From contig JACQAG010000017.1 in the NCBI GenBank assembly GCA_016195085.1, forward strand, positions 1-44,292: a stretch of DNA of 44,292 nt, in the 5' to 3' direction. The notes below the pieces were generated by a model. That model ran no database searches, was not told where the DNA came from, and saw nothing but the letters and a program-made list of their open reading frames with translations. Positions 325-9,245 of the stretch are shown piece by piece (within the stretch, counting starts at the first letter, position 1; each line of letters opens with the position of its first letter). The translations under genes and the position numbers were made by a program. Source of the stretch: Pseudomonadota bacterium. Its GTDB lineage: Bacteria > Pseudomonadota > Alphaproteobacteria > SHVZ01.

Positions 325-1242
325 TCACGGCGGTGGGACCGCAGACTTGATAGCAGAGCGACAAGCTGCGAGGGCTTCTGCCTGTAGCGGAACGTCGTTA
401 TCACCGAAATCCATGTACCGGAGTTGCGTATTTTCCCACTTTCCACCGCCCTGATTAATGGGCAAGTGCGTTTCCAGAGTGTTTACCTCGACTACGAAGA
501 GCCGCGGCTGCTCATGCAGTAGCCATAGATGGAACTCATAGTTCATACTATTGATCGCGGTTTCCCATTCGTTGCGTGTCACAAAGAAGGTGGCCTCCTT
601 CAACCGCATGGTGCTTCCTTTCACCTCGATCCTCAGCACCTCGCTCCGATCCCGGTCCTTCACCGATAAGACATCGAATCCTGAGACATTTGATTCGATC
701 GCCTGCCATTTCGGTTCCTTACCGGTTCGCGCTCGCTCCTGCGTCACTGTTAAGCGTTCTGCGAGGCGCCCAATCCGGAGATTGAACCCAGATTTCTTCG
801 ATCGGATGCTTAAGGCGACAAAATCCCACCACTCCACGACAGCGTCGTCATTACCTTCGAACAACCCACATGACTTGAAACACTGCTCTACGTTGGTCGG
901 CATAGATCTCTGGGCCTCAGCGCGCCCGAGAAGTATGCGCTTCGCCCAAGGCGGTGACTCGATGGCGATCAGATCGGCAAGTTGGGCTCGGAGAAAATGG
1001 CCCTCATCCACTAGTTCCGCGATGACATGACCGCGGTCAGTTAATCGCAATGCCCCGTCTCTCGACACATTCGCCCACTGACATTTCTGAACCAGAGCCA
1101 GCACCGCTGCTGCGTCTGCAACCTCGAAACGACGAAAGCTTTCGCGGAATAGCTCCACGGTGATCGCCTGGTCGCGAACTAACCTCAAAAATGACTGGCT
1201 CGAGTACAGCACGCCGACTGAGAACATCGTCACCGTCGCCAT
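325..1242 (-). CDS. DUF3883 (PD-(D/E)XK-like) protein of the island cassette
   Basis: The predicted protein has 305 residues. The C-terminal half (about 150-260) matches DUF3883, the domain at the end of NO VEIN-type proteins. It shows an AERL...QER helix, then GFD with D190, then IEVKGS with E206 and K208, then FFVTRNEWETA. The D...ExK spacing fits a PD-(D/E)XK nuclease-like fold, so it is a plausible DNA-cutting or DNA-binding subunit; activity is inferred. Residues about 40-100 look like a winged helix (RLTDRGHVIAEL). It is the last gene of the four-gene minus-strand cassette, and its start overlaps the end of the helicase gene by 13 bp, which suggests coupled translation. Base composition is lower in GC than the dcw genes. 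I cannot assign it to a named defence system. Confidence 0.8.
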   Translation of the reverse strand: MATVTMFSVGVLYSSQSFLRLVRDQAITVELFRESFRRFEVADAAAVLALVQKCQWANVSRDGALRLTDRGHVIAELVDEGHFLRAQLADLIAIESPPWAKRILLGRAEAQRSMPTNVEQCFKSCGLFEGNDDAVVEWWDFVALSIRSKKSGFNLRIGRLAERLTVTQERARTGKEPKWQAIESNVSGFDVLSVKDRDRSEVLRIEVKGSTMRLKEATFFVTRNEWETAINSMNYEFHLWLLHEQPRLFVVEVNTLETHLPINQGGGKWENTQLRYMDFGDNDVPLQAEALAACRSAIKSAVPPP

Positions 1243-3023
1243 GCATTCAGGTGGTTGACGAAGTCCGCCAAATCCTCATCGTCGAAGGCATCAACGTCTG
1301 CATCAAGGTCGACCGAAACAGGCTCAATTCGAAGGCCTGGATCCTGCAGAACCTCTGCCATGCGTCCAATTTTTGTGATCAATCGGCGGTTGACAGACTC
1401 ATCGACCGTGTTGAGACATATCAGCATTTCGACTGTTGTAATCTGATCTGGTCTCAGGCCAAGGCGATGGATGCGGTCTTCTGACTGAAGAAACTGTGCT
1501 GCGTTATAGTTGCGATCGAGGTAGATCGCATGATGACAGACCGAATGCAGGCTGATGCCTTCACCGCATGCCGCCGGGTTCGCAACGAGGACATAGCAAT
1601 TCGCATCGTCGTGAAACCTCTTGATCTTCTGCTCTCGAGTTCCTTCTTCGTCTTCGCTTCCAGCATCCACTCCCCCGTGAATATAGTCCGCACCGAGATC
1701 GATCAGGCGCTGAGCAACAATTTCCACATTGTCGACAAAACTCGACCATATGATTGTTTTTTGACCTTTCAGGGCCAATTGGCGTGCTCTCAGGCATACC
1801 GCTTCCAGTTTGGCACTGTCACCCTCTTCCAAGACTTCAGCCAACAGATCCGTGTGTTCAAATTCCACGGCACGCGCCAACAGACCTGGGTTGGACACGA
1901 CCTGTAAAAGGCGCAATGCACTACGGCCGATGCGCCTCAATTTCATTCGGTCTGCTATATGCAAACCTTCAGCTTCTCTAGCTGCTTCCGATGACAGAAG
2001 ACGATAGAGCTCATGTTGAGCGGGCTTTAGCGGTACAGGAATTAGGCGTCTCTCTACCGCCGGCAAATTCAACTCTGCTTTCGTGGTTCGCACGTATACG
2101 GGCTGAATCATATTCGTGACGGTGTTCTCATCGGCATTGATCTCGGGGAAGAGGAATCGGAACTGTGGGACCAAGTCGGCCAAGTCGTTTGGCATCGGTG
2201 TCCCCGACATAATCAGCTTATAAGAGGGTATATCGCTTATCGAAAGGATCGCATTCCCTATAACTCCTGACAGCCCGCGCTTTATACGATGCGACTCATC
2301 AAGGAACAGAATGCTGTCAGAGCCTGAAAGAAAGTCCCCTATCTCTGCCAGCACGTTCGGAAGTTGCTGGTATGTGATGAGAGTTTTGCTTGGTTCCGTA
2401 CGCAGTATTTGCCGAATTGTTGCTCTGCCGCCCGTGAGCCTCACGAAGGGTTCGCTATCTCGTAAACAAAGGCCCAACTGTTCTTCCCACGCAGCAAACG
2501 CATTTTTGGGTGCGACGACAAACAGGCGAGTTGTCTCAATTCTTTTTAACGCGTAGACAGCCAAAGCTTCGGTTGTCTTCCCGGCGCCCGGAACGGAAAA
2601 GGTTGCCGCTGAAGGACGCGTGGCGAGCCTCGTCACATTGCGCTTCTGTTCGTTCGTGAGATCGCGAATGAAGCCCGCACCTTGTAATCGGCGCAACATC
2701 TCGCCAACGTCAAGCGGTTGCGCTGCAAGGGTCGCTTCATAGGCATCGTGGCGCAGGTTGGCGAGCTTGAGGCGTTGTTCAGCCGATGAGTGGACCGCAA
2801 CGCCGAATTTTTTACGACTAGCTTGATACGCCAAGCCATCTCGACAAGAAAGGAATGCCCACCAAGGCATGGCAAGTGAGACGGCAGTCAGCTCTAAAGT
2901 TTGCGGATTGCTGTCGAGGCAAAGTCGACGGATGTGTGGCCAGATCCTCGGATCACCCACGTAACTTAGGACGGCCCTCCTCGTCTCTTCATCGTACGAG
3001 ACAAGGACATTATTGTTCTCCAT
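1230..3023 (-). CDS. SNF2-family DEAD/DEAH-like helicase/translocase
   Basis: The predicted protein has 597 residues and complete superfamily 2 motifs. These are Walker A VPGAGKTT at 144-151, motif II DESH at 242-245, motif III SGTP at 273-276, motif V around GEGISLHSV (487-495), and motif VI QSEDRIHRLG at 513-522. Motif VI and the DESH/SGTP pair point to the SNF2 group, whose members usually move along double-stranded DNA without unwinding it. The first 120 residues are not a domain I recognise. The acidic C-terminal tail (DADVDAFDDEDLADF) is unusual. The gene overlaps the ParB-like gene upstream by 14 bp and the DUF3883 gene downstream by 13 bp. In this context it is probably the motor of a DNA-targeting system. 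Confidence 0.9.
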   Translation of the reverse strand: MENNNVLVSYDEETRRAVLSYVGDPRIWPHIRRLCLDSNPQTLELTAVSLAMPWWAFLSCRDGLAYQASRKKFGVAVHSSAEQRLKLANLRHDAYEATLAAQPLDVGEMLRRLQGAGFIRDLTNEQKRNVTRLATRPSAATFSVPGAGKTTEALAVYALKRIETTRLFVVAPKNAFAAWEEQLGLCLRDSEPFVRLTGGRATIRQILRTEPSKTLITYQQLPNVLAEIGDFLSGSDSILFLDESHRIKRGLSGVIGNAILSISDIPSYKLIMSGTPMPNDLADLVPQFRFLFPEINADENTVTNMIQPVYVRTTKAELNLPAVERRLIPVPLKPAQHELYRLLSSEAAREAEGLHIADRMKLRRIGRSALRLLQVVSNPGLLARAVEFEHTDLLAEVLEEGDSAKLEAVCLRARQLALKGQKTIIWSSFVDNVEIVAQRLIDLGADYIHGGVDAGSEDEEGTREQKIKRFHDDANCYVLVANPAACGEGISLHSVCHHAIYLDRNYNAAQFLQSEDRIHRLGLRPDQITTVEMLICLNTVDESVNRRLITKIGRMAEVLQDPGLRIEPVSVDLDADVDAFDDEDLADFVNHLNAWRR

Positions 3024-4245
3024 CGCCTCGTGCCCACTCAGACAGCTCGGCCACTAGCCGTCCAATTTGCTCCAGATCTGGCAAACATCCGTCCCGCAAT
3101 GTCCCGGACTCTATCCCTTCTTTTGCGGCCTGCAGCGCCTCTCTCGCCCGACGTATCTGATCTGCCACGTAGCCGGTCTTTTTCTTATGTCGTTTTTTGG
3201 CAGCCTCGGCATCGAGAGTGTCACGTATTGCTAGGCGCGCGTTCTCAAAGTTCGCCTGATCGTTGAGTGCATCAGCCAACCTCGTTAGTTGTTCGCTTTT
3301 GTCCTCCTCGGCCTCTAGATCCAGCTCAGCGATGAGATTTTCGGCCACATCCTCAATAACGTCTCCAACGACCTTTATCTCCGCGTATGTACGTTTTCCT
3401 TCACCGGCTTCGTCGGCCAGGCAAAAGGATGCCTTTTCGAAGATTTCCTTATATGGCTCAGGCTGCTTGAGTTTCTTGCGCGTTCTACTGATTTGGCGAA
3501 AGGCAAATTCCTTGTCGTCCAATTCAGAGTACCGTTTGGGTTTTCCTCGGCTCTCAAGATAGGCATCCGCATAGTCGAGCGCGTCGAAGAGTTCGCGTAA
3601 GTCCTGTGAATCAATCTCGTATAGCGCCGATATCTGTGCTTCGGCATACCCATGGGTAGTCTGTTTTTCTCGATACATCAGAGCCTCAGCGGTCCAGCTG
3701 TAATCTGCCTTCAGGTCTTCTTTCAGCTGTAGCGTCGCCTCTAGCGCATCGAGATCTCGGTCATCGCAGGGCGGGAGGATCACTACATCGATGGTCGCGA
3801 AGCGTTTGTACGCCGAAGAGTCTTCCGCATAGAGGTCTCGCCAAGTCGCGAGGCGACGGTTTCCGTTAATAACAAAGCCCTGCGCCGAAAGAATGATTGG
3901 CTCAGATTGCTCGACCTTCTTGAACTCTGCGAAGAGATTCTTGCTATCGTTCTCCTTTGCTAATTTGACGAGCAGCTTGTGTTGAACCTCCTGCGCCTCT
4001 GCAGACTCTAGATCTGCTCTAAAGAAATCCGAGGGGAGGTCCGAATGCTGCGCGAGATACTCGGCTTGCCGATCTGTTGTCCGACCGTTCTCTAACCTGT
4101 AGAGCGGCAGATCGAGAGGCAACCGATGGATCGGGAGGTACTGATTGGATCCTTGAAACGGTACGGGGTGCGTCTTGTTGCTGCTATTATTCTGGAGCTC
4201 TAGCAAGAACTGCTTGCGTCGCGGATATCGCCAGCCGTAGTCCAT
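3010..4245 (-). CDS. ParB-like domain protein
   Basis: The predicted protein has 411 residues. Residues 117-140 read PIILSAQGFVINGNRRLATW, the layout of the ParB/sulfiredoxin-like domain (a strand, then G-x-x-I-x-G-x-R-R followed by a helix). A preceding segment (about 45-65, LYRLENGRTTDRQAEYL) fits the domain's first strand and loop. The middle part (about 150-240) has the helical look of a ParB DNA-binding region but no motif I can name. The rest is charged and probably coiled coil (about 290-400). The ATG at 4245 has a GGGGGCG stretch about 5 nt upstream. It lies between the methyltransferase and the helicase. Partition is unlikely, because no ParA is present; a DNA recognition or nuclease role in the cassette is inferred. 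Confidence 0.65.
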   Translation of the reverse strand: MDYGWRYPRRKQFLLELQNNSSNKTHPVPFQGSNQYLPIHRLPLDLPLYRLENGRTTDRQAEYLAQHSDLPSDFFRADLESAEAQEVQHKLLVKLAKENDSKNLFAEFKKVEQSEPIILSAQGFVINGNRRLATWRDLYAEDSSAYKRFATIDVVILPPCDDRDLDALEATLQLKEDLKADYSWTAEALMYREKQTTHGYAEAQISALYEIDSQDLRELFDALDYADAYLESRGKPKRYSELDDKEFAFRQISRTRKKLKQPEPYKEIFEKASFCLADEAGEGKRTYAEIKVVGDVIEDVAENLIAELDLEAEEDKSEQLTRLADALNDQANFENARLAIRDTLDAEAAKKRHKKKTGYVADQIRRAREALQAAKEGIESGTLRDGCLPDLEQIGRLVAELSEWARGDGEQ

Positions 4246-4348
4246 CGATCGCCCCCGTATCGACTATCCGCGGATTCCAGAACCTACATTGCGAGAGTGT
4301 TGATTGCCATCGCTTGCCCCGACGTCTCTCCAATAGCACTACTGAGCA

Positions 4349-5386
4349 CTATGCGATCTGGTCGCGGCGCACCGACATTGGAGAGGTGCGATGGTCATAA
4401 AGGGGGCGCGCGTGGGATCTAAATCTCATTTTACCCGACAGTGCCCCATCGATCCGCGCCTTGGCAAGTTGCGCGTAAGCTTCGTCGATTTCGCATCCCC
4501 AAAAGCGCCGTTGATGAATAGCGGCTGCTACACCAGCCGAGCCCACTCCTGCGAATGGATCGAACACAAGATCGCCTTCGTTTGAGAGCGCAAGCACTAA
4601 CCTCTCCACGAGCCCTACCGGGAATTGACAAGGGTGCCCAGTTTTCTCGACGTGGCTTGCTTTGACATTGGGGATATCCCACACGTCGATATCAGCAGCT
4701 GGGACCTCCCAAACATCCTCGGGGTTTTTTCCCATAGGGTGACTCGAAAATTTTCCTGCATTGGGGCCTTTGTAAGCCCGTTTGCCAGGATACTTCGGTG
4801 GTATCCGGACTGCGTCGAGGTTGAATGTATAGTCGTTCGATTTCGTGTACCAAAGTACCACCTCATAGCGACCACTAAACCGCCGTCGCTGATGCATGCC
4901 GTGGCCATACCGCCAAATGACGCGATTCCGAAGTTTAAGGCCGTGCTTGAGAAAAATCGGATGGAAGATGTAGTCGAGCGGCGCGATAGACCCGTTCTCC
5001 ACGTAGTTGCCTATTTGCCAGCATAGGCTGCCTGAAGGCTTGAGACGCGTAACCAGCTTGGCAATTATCGCTTCGTGCCATTTTGCATAGTCTTCAAGCC
5101 CCTGCTTGGTCTCGTAGTGCTTGCCAAGGTTATACGGTGGAGACGTGACCACGAGGTCCCATAATGCGGCCTTTGGCAGCGATGCGAGCACCCGCTCAGC
5201 ATCGACATTCCAGATTATTGCTGCATGCTTGGATAGTCCCTTTGGAACACGCTTCCACAGCCTAGTTCGTTGCGGTGCCTGACGCGTCATGGTTGTTGAT
5301 GTGCCCCCTTTTGACCAGACAAGTATTGACGCGGACGAAGGTGACGCGTTCTTAGCCCCTTCGTCCATAGTCGAGTAGGTTCCCAC
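4349..5386 (-). CDS. Beta-class DNA methyltransferase (N6-adenine or N4-cytosine)
   Basis: The predicted protein has 345 residues. Catalytic motif IV TSPPYNLG lies at 81-88, and the S-adenosylmethionine-binding motif I, DPFAGVGSAG, follows at 276-285. The order IV then I defines the beta class of amino-methyltransferases. Residues 249-256 (TGHPCQFP) are the usual motif just before motif I. The target base and sequence cannot be read from this. The start is uncertain: GTG at 5386, ATG at 5368 and ATG at 5290 are all possible, and the conserved part begins near residue 56. It is the first gene of the island cassette and is separated from the ParB-like gene by 103 bp. It probably marks host DNA for the other three proteins; that pairing is inferred from position only. 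Confidence 0.93.
   Translation of the reverse strand: MGTYSTMDEGAKNASPSSASILVWSKGGTSTTMTRQAPQRTRLWKRVPKGLSKHAAIIWNVDAERVLASLPKAALWDLVVTSPPYNLGKHYETKQGLEDYAKWHEAIIAKLVTRLKPSGSLCWQIGNYVENGSIAPLDYIFHPIFLKHGLKLRNRVIWRYGHGMHQRRRFSGRYEVVLWYTKSNDYTFNLDAVRIPPKYPGKRAYKGPNAGKFSSHPMGKNPEDVWEVPAADIDVWDIPNVKASHVEKTGHPCQFPVGLVERLVLALSNEGDLVFDPFAGVGSAGVAAAIHQRRFWGCEIDEAYAQLAKARIDGALSGKMRFRSHARPLYDHRTSPMSVRRDQIA

Positions 5387-5469: not shown

Positions 5470-9245
<3,776 letters not shown>

Follow-up and report, generated by a model that had tools for sequence, protein, structure and literature searches.

The first 44,292 nucleotides of contig JACQAG010000017.1, part of a 4.8 Mb draft genome of an alphaproteobacterium (GCA_016195085.1) and read here from the first base of the contig (henceforth referred to as the window), carry a cassette of four adjacent genes that encode a DNA methyltransferase (MTase), a ParB-like protein, an SNF2 protein and a DUF3883 protein. 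We consider this cassette to be, with a good measure of probability, an ATP-dependent restriction-modification (RM) system of an undescribed type, a reading that rests on the architecture of the gene set, on its conservation and on the exchange of its modification enzyme. An earlier note on this DNA, made from the sequence alone, had described four genes on one strand, three of them overlapping, with a GC content below that of their surroundings; the open reading frames (ORFs) bear this out, with overlaps of 13 bp (DUF3883/SNF2) and 14 bp (SNF2/ParB), and so does the GC content of the cassette, which is 0.52–0.56 compared to 0.62–0.73 for the flanking genes.

Recurrence of the gene set and exchange of its methyltransferase

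With the SNF2 protein as the anchor, 84,980 species genomes were searched and the best 80 loci were kept. A gene for the ParB-like protein is present in 78 of these 80 loci, a DUF3883 gene in 73 and both in 71, in at least 12 phyla, with a fixed gene order and a median intergenic distance of -4 bp (that is, an overlap) at both the ParB/SNF2 and the SNF2/DUF3883 junction. The earlier note had proposed a tally of the neighbours of the ParB-like protein and had allowed that the four families might rarely occur together elsewhere. When the ParB-like protein served as the anchor in sets of 385 and 398 genomes, seven different strong homologues emerged beyond the genome of the window; six of them adjoin SNF2 and DUF3883 genes while the seventh (G164) is solitary, and hence both anchors recover the set. 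Within the window's own family and order, a group of 7 genomes, the ParB search returned the window only. By tblastn with the ParB-like protein the set was found on plasmids of Paracoccus, Azospirillum, Mesorhizobium, Kozakia and Rhizobium and in a Streptococcus prophage, and many copies lie on large chromosomal contigs. Among 70 more distant SNF2 relatives, ParB was near 9 and DUF3883 near 3, in every case among the top-ranked matches, which indicates that the linkage is a property of the present SNF2 clade. Overall, the genes make up a genuine, conserved unit and co-occur far above chance.

An MTase gene lies within 6 kb in 90 of 103 related loci, and approximately half of the loci without one end at contig boundaries. 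By locus, the enzymes fall into 54 of the window's type (here termed beta-1), 20 C5 MTases, 6 of a second beta type (beta-2; 474–507 amino acids (aa), found in Bacillota and mostly inverted) and 4 others. The beta-1 gene is mostly upstream of the trio and in the same orientation; C5 and beta-2 genes are frequently encoded on the other strand or placed downstream of it, and several C5 loci also hold genes for very-short-patch-repair (Vsr) endonucleases. Pairwise identities of the ParB, SNF2 and DUF3883 domains correlate with one another at 0.69–0.82 but with those of the MTase at just 0.23–0.47, and all three core trees require no fewer than 11 changes of MTase class (mean for shuffled labels, 21.6). 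Thus, the trio co-evolves and METHYLTRANSFERASE is the exchangeable part of the set. Such swapping of the modification enzyme against a stable restriction core is expected of RM systems and is otherwise hard to explain.

Predicted activities of the four proteins

The MTase matches Pfam N6_N4_Mtase (6.9e-52) and contains the motifs TSPPYNLG and DPFAGVGSAG, as the earlier note had read them in assigning it to the beta class. Its closest solved structures are M.RsrI and MboIIA, and it is 49–58% identical to the MTases in the equivalent position of loci L003, L019 and L020; we therefore take it to be a beta-class amino-methyltransferase and the predicted modification enzyme of the set. Its true start is uncertain because conserved sequence only begins approximately 55 aa into the ORF. 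Strong conservation past motif VIII (median identity 0.74) makes a single target common to the beta-1 group plausible; that this target has a GATC core, as the BamHI/BglII/BstYI, DpnII and MutH/Sau3AI families might suggest, is speculation.

The SNF2 protein matches SNF2-rel_dom (3.4e-15) and Helicase_C (2.6e-7) in Pfam, with no ResIII match, and the full set of motor motifs claimed for it is in place: a Walker A motif (FSVPGAGKT, with K149), a DESH box and motif VI. Among its relatives, Walker A and DExH are kept in 103 of 103 and motif VI in 100 of 103 sequences, and the protein is by these marks an SNF2-family ATPase and a predicted DNA translocase.

The DUF3883 protein matches NOV_C in Pfam (2.4e-9), as do, independently, 52 of 53 relatives. 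AlphaFold2 models of this and of the ParB-like protein, built from 51 homologues, have pLDDT (predicted local distance difference test) values of 94.3 and 94.1, respectively. VIA-align matches the C-terminal domain of the DUF3883 model to the nucleases NhoI (8q5n, Z 11.2), I-Ssp6803I (11.2), Hjc (11.0) and PvuII (8.9); Foldseek with the model returned nothing at E<0.001. E162, G188, D190, E206 and K208 are invariant in an alignment of 51 sequences. The PD-(D/E)XK residues D190, E206 and K208 named in the earlier note thus stand, as does the fold, to which the model adds an N-terminal winged helix. The modelled active site is intact and nuclease activity is predicted. Earlier work described DUF3883 as a new kind of restriction-endonuclease domain that is joined to SNF2 in other RM operons (PMC3710099), and an archaeal survey placed it ‘presumably’ in a group of Type II restriction endonucleases (PMC10609329). 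On Lactiplantibacillus plasmids, a MutH-like gene stands third beside the ParB–SNF2 pair (L008:8104–8847), and in L010 (8185–10836) the SNF2 protein has an N-terminal PLD nuclease domain, with a similar N-terminal extension in L008; these variants look like nuclease swapping within one framework. The DUF3883 seed from L008, being really MutH-like, is outside the seed used for the counts.

The ParB-like protein gives a single Pfam match, which is below threshold (ddrB-ParB, PF18763, 1.3e-3, 19.3 bits against a cut-off of 27.6); the same family matches 7 of 53 relatives at E up to 0.01, and sequence-profile searches returned no solved relative. Its model superposes over two domains on KorB (8qa9, Z 10.0 over 200 residues) and on Caulobacter ParB–parS (6t1f, Z 9.5), and residues 179–225 align with the helix-turn-helix (HTH) region of ParB (hhalign E 1.9e-4). 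R55, Q113, GNRR and E169 are invariant in the 51-sequence alignment, and GNRR is kept in 94 of 99 members. The motif GFVINGNRR and the ParB-like character described earlier hold, but the protein is more than a ParB-like domain: it combines a nucleoside triphosphatase (NTPase) domain with an HTH domain, and the ‘recogniser’ of the earlier note would, on the model, have the architecture of a DNA-binding nucleotide switch of the ParB/KorB/Noc type. ParB-type folds may bind CTP, ATP or GTP, according to a recent survey (PMC12704722). A solitary homologue of the ParB-like protein (L022:6460–8028, E 3.5e-70) has no SNF2, nuclease or MTase gene close by. The ParB_N family (PF02195) has no match in the genome of the window and is present in all 6 sister-genus genomes, a gap that probably comes from incompleteness of the assembly.

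A fifth gene in related loci and the setting of the cassette

In beta-1 loci the gap between the MTase and ParB genes has a median of 464 bp, and in 62 loci a gene of approximately 153 codons that matches Pfam BglII and BamHI lies directly before the ParB gene. PDB profile matches of its product are BstYI (1.5e-7), OkrAI (1e-4) and BamHI (3e-3). In the alignment with BamHI, MEFETGN lies opposite LCLQTGN and the place of the catalytic Glu is taken by Cys or Gln; across 59 fifth-gene sequences this position is C in 34, Q in 21, H in 4 and E in none. The fifth protein is thus probably a nuclease-dead DNA reader of the BamHI/BglII/BstYI family, and gives the impression of a Type II restriction enzyme pared down to DNA reading. 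Other proteins occupy the same slot elsewhere: a BanI/DpnII-like protein, for which sequence profiles found no solved relative, in streptococcal loci (including the Streptococcus prophage) and related viral loci; a highly conserved protein of 280–315 aa (protein X), with no Pfam match and no PDB sequence match, in the alphaproteobacterial C5/Vsr variant; and others again in actinobacterial loci. On a 1.7 Mb plasmid of Paracoccus denitrificans HAMBI_2443 (L003), a complete five-gene cassette lies where the PLSDB table lists no gene.

The slot is empty in the window, and the fifth gene, present in most relatives, could not be seen from the sequence on which the earlier note was based. Together with L026 and L027, its two closest relatives, the window forms a supported clade that is nested among carriers of the fifth gene and in which every member is without it; this nesting indicates secondary loss, and the window represents a derived four-gene form. 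A search of the window genome, run without a positive-control genome, found no copy of the fifth gene elsewhere. Since the gene was lost in this clade, sequence reading must there have passed to another subunit, unless the mode of recognition is now a different one.

The cassette is adjoined on one side by ligA and on the other by the start of the contig, of which only 325 bp remain to its left; the contig opens inside a reading frame, convergent with the cassette, that ends in a SEC-C zinc motif and may be the C-terminus of SecA or another SEC-C protein. Cassette genes are absent downstream of ligA in 6 of 6 sister-genus genomes examined, and so the cassette was either inserted here or lost there. 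In L027 an integrase-like gene follows straight after DUF3883 (5930–7093) and in L026 a relaxase-like gene lies just ahead of the MTase gene (3111–4427), and both loci appear, judging by their sequences, to sit on mobile elements. Among 100 neighbour genes scanned with Pfam, without a control, integrases (6) and resolvases (3) were commonest. The low GC content, the absence at ligA in six relatives and the integrases, relaxases and plasmids near homologues point to horizontal spread.

Table 1. Positions of the cassette genes, their predicted domains, neighbouring features of the window and occupants of the slot before the ParB gene in related loci.
Feature	Position	Strand	Remarks
Frame ending in a SEC-C motif	2–64	plus	opens the contig
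DUF3883 gene	325–1242	minus	ORF of 305 aa
SNF2 gene	1230–3023	minus	ORF of 597 aa
ParB-like gene	3010–4245	minus	ORF of 411 aa
Slot between MTase and ParB genes	4246–4348	minus	103 bp, empty here; site of the fifth gene in relatives
MTase gene	4349–5386	minus	ORF of 345 aa, GTG start
ligA	5470–7578		adjoins the cassette
Winged helix of DUF3883 protein (predicted)	aa 7–82, N-terminal		Z 7–8, close to search background; helical linker after
PD-(D/E)XK nuclease domain of DUF3883 protein (predicted)	approximately aa 151–291, C-terminal		E162, D190, E206, K208
NTPase domain of ParB-like protein (predicted)	approximately aa 37–177		P-motif GNRR 128–131; box-III-like E169/Q173
HTH domain of ParB-like protein (predicted)	approximately aa 181–306		long C-terminal helices after
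Fifth gene, examples	L028–L093 and others, e.g. L032:5225–5680, L071:4842–5306		immediately upstream of ParB
Protein X	L004:6120–6962, L005:6132–6977, L006:599–1558, L007:6114–6980; also L097, L100, L102, L110		

Proposed mechanism, alternatives and known systems

As a working model, the MTase would mark a sequence in the DNA of the host, and the ParB-like protein, with or without the winged helix of the nuclease, would engage unmethylated DNA. Where the dead BamHI-like reader is present, it would probably load together with the ParB-like protein and supply the sequence reading; in the clade of the window, reading might fall to the ParB-like protein, the DUF3883 protein or the MTase. The SNF2 protein would then translocate on double-stranded DNA, driven by ATP, and the DUF3883 nuclease would cut on meeting unmarked sites. 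On this model the subunits would form a complex, the ParB-like protein may clamp DNA in a nucleotide-dependent manner, cleavage would be sensitive to methylation, and the system may act against phages or plasmids. A more specific version, which we put forward tentatively and hold to be possible though doubtful, is that the dead BamHI/BglII-family protein (lost in the window's clade) and a nucleotide-gated clamp of the ParB/KorB type read and load onto unmethylated sites and hand over to the SNF2 motor and the detached PD-(D/E)XK nuclease, with the MTase freely exchangeable and clamping by the ParB-like protein serving as the checkpoint between self and non-self.

Several observations weigh against the RM reading or its details. 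No subunit among the ParB-like, DUF3883 and BamHI-like proteins stands out as tracking the MTase: in mirror-tree comparisons the DUF3883 C-terminal domain is slightly best in one set (0.3) and the BamHI-like protein in another (0.23), and the number of MTase class changes is equal across the subunit trees (11, 11 and 11; 6–7 on a smaller set). That the window's clade does without the BamHI-like protein weakens the case for it as the sole specificity subunit. In addition, the control of distant SNF2 relatives was drawn from viral contigs and not from genomes, and the ParB and DUF3883 counts come from profiles iterated on the same loci, of which NOV_C is confirmed by Pfam whereas ParB mostly escapes it.

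Four other readings account for parts of these data. The MTase itself could be the site-reading subunit, as Mod is for Res in Type III systems, with the ParB-like protein as an accessory clamp or regulator; the lack of a separate reader gene in the window's clade, the beta class that the MTase shares with Type III Mod, its upstream position and common orientation in most beta-1 loci and the conserved region after motif VIII all agree with this. An obligatory MTase subunit is, however, hard to reconcile with the same trio standing beside C5 and beta-2 MTases, often inverted or downstream, and the trio does not co-evolve tightly with the MTase and has no ResIII helicase, so that we regard this arrangement as unlikely. 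The main rival outside RM is protection of the kind attributed to DdrB of phage P1, in which SNF2, MTase and ParB-like proteins would shield the incoming DNA of a mobile element as a counter-defence or DNA-transfer function, as P1 DarB/DdrB polyvalent proteins may do. Dyads of SWI2/SNF2 and adenine MTase, and also DdrB-like ParB domains, are known from P1-type polyvalent proteins for which protection of injected DNA has been proposed (PMC5512222), ddrB-ParB is the sole Pfam match, albeit a weak one, of the ParB-like protein, and homologues occur on plasmids and prophages. Here, by contrast, the proteins are small and separate and not giant virion proteins, in most loci they are accompanied by a nuclease whose active site is intact, the MTases are swapped and can be of the C5 class, the modelled ParB-like protein has an HTH like that of KorB/ParB and many copies lie on chromosomal contigs; taken together, these features make a protective role quite improbable.

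We see only a slight chance that the cassette serves to maintain a plasmid or other mobile element, with the ParB-like protein bound to a centromere-like site and the nuclease–MTase pair killing cells that lose the module. The ParB/KorB-like fold and the frequent plasmid location fit this, and addiction is a role that RM systems can play. Yet there is no ParA partner, an SNF2 motor is foreign to known partition systems, copies occur in 12 phyla and in many cases on chromosomal contigs of large size, and addiction would be a by-product of RM and not an alternative mechanism to it. Least credible of all is a Type IV-like function, in which the trio would attack DNA bearing foreign modifications and the MTase would be an occasional passenger: although the closest nuclease fold, that of NhoI/Eco15I, is seen with methylated DNA and some loci have no MTase within 6 kb, the enzyme accompanies the trio in the great majority of loci, roughly every second exception lies on a truncated contig, and a partner that methylates the host's own DNA would kill the cell if its mark were the same as the trigger. 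An RM system of undescribed type remains our preferred reading. If it is correct, an ATP-dependent RM type spread over at least 12 phyla is missing from the PADLOC and NCBIfam catalogues searched, a nucleotide-switch protein of the ParB/KorB type would be part of an immune machine, and the system would illustrate how a Type II enzyme can become a pure DNA reader with the cutting passed to a motor-driven nuclease; whether a ParB clamp senses methylation is the question that this raises.

The earlier note had left room for the set to be already catalogued. It is absent from PADLOC 2023 and NCBIfam 2026, in which the four proteins give generic MTase or SNF2-core matches, or weak ones at the level of NOV_C, far below curated cut-offs where these are set; nor is the ParB–SNF2–DUF3883–MTase set described in the open literature searched (5.4 million papers; subscription papers, most preprints and REBASE lay outside its scope), including those of its seven papers mentioning DUF3883 that surfaced in defence-related searches. 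SNF2–DUF3883 fusions are reported in RM operons with HEPN–AAA proteins of the Ava_2192 type (PMC3710099), which is another operon, and this set was not found there. SpyI of prophage Phi1207.3 was considered as the same system and rejected, its restriction subunits being LlaJI-like.

The view that the cassette is not DISARM, BREX, Dnd or Druantia also holds: the partner proteins that define these systems, like those that define Dpd and Zorya, are all missing from the four. Its likeness to DISARM, BREX, Dpd, Zorya and Druantia lies in SNF2-type motors, and the profiles for DrmD, BrxHII, DpdE and ZorD match the SNF2 core. Among the four proteins there is no match to DUF1998 (DrmB) or PLD that would point to DISARM, which is defined by DrmB and DrmA/DrmC with DrmD/DrmMI (DrmD scores 30 bits against a cut-off of 610, on the SNF2 core only, and the contig ends beside the cassette), no PglZ or BrxC-type ATPase match of BREX, no match to Dpd or Dnd, with their 7-deazaguanine or phosphorothioate modification enzymes, other than DpdE (17 bits against the NCBIfam cut-off of 500, again on the SNF2 core only) and no HsdM-type N6_Mtase, HsdS or HsdR of Type I RM. 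With ParB, KorB and Noc the ParB-like protein has in common the NTPase-plus-HTH architecture, the P-motif arginines and the box-III-like Glu/Gln, but there is no ParA among the four genes, the next gene being ligA, and the protein is coupled to an SNF2 motor and a nuclease, an arrangement that the passages found in the 2025 survey (PMC12704722) do not describe. The fifth protein is alike to the restriction endonucleases BamHI, BglII and BstYI by profile, but differs in its small size, in the replacement of the catalytic Glu in 59 of 59 sequences and in its absence from the window.

As in RM systems generally, an MTase gene is adjacent and the nuclease active site is intact. With Type III (Mod/Res) and Type ISP systems the cassette shares the logic of an MTase, a superfamily 2 motor and a PD-(D/E)XK nuclease, and with Type III Mod the beta class of the MTase; here, however, motor and nuclease are separate proteins, the motor is SNF2 and not ResIII, the MTase may be of the C5 class and there is an additional ParB-like protein. 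In CglI/NgoAVII, the R-protein is of the PLD type with a B3-like domain. CglI/NgoAVII comprise an MTase, this R-protein and a DEAD-family N/H-protein only, whereas the cassette has an SNF2 motor, a NOV_C nuclease that joins a winged HTH to PD-(D/E)XK and a ParB/KorB-like subunit, usually with a dead BamHI-like protein in relatives, which CglI/NgoAVII do not have; neither the PLD-type R-protein nor the DEAD-family N/H-protein is found here. In those systems MTase, nuclease and helicase-like ATPase are likewise separate, and cleavage needs nucleotide hydrolysis and a complex of nuclease and ATPase (PMC4267653, PMC5737866). Judged by its parts, the cassette belongs neither to CglI/NgoAVII nor to Type III, but it is to these two that its logic comes nearest.

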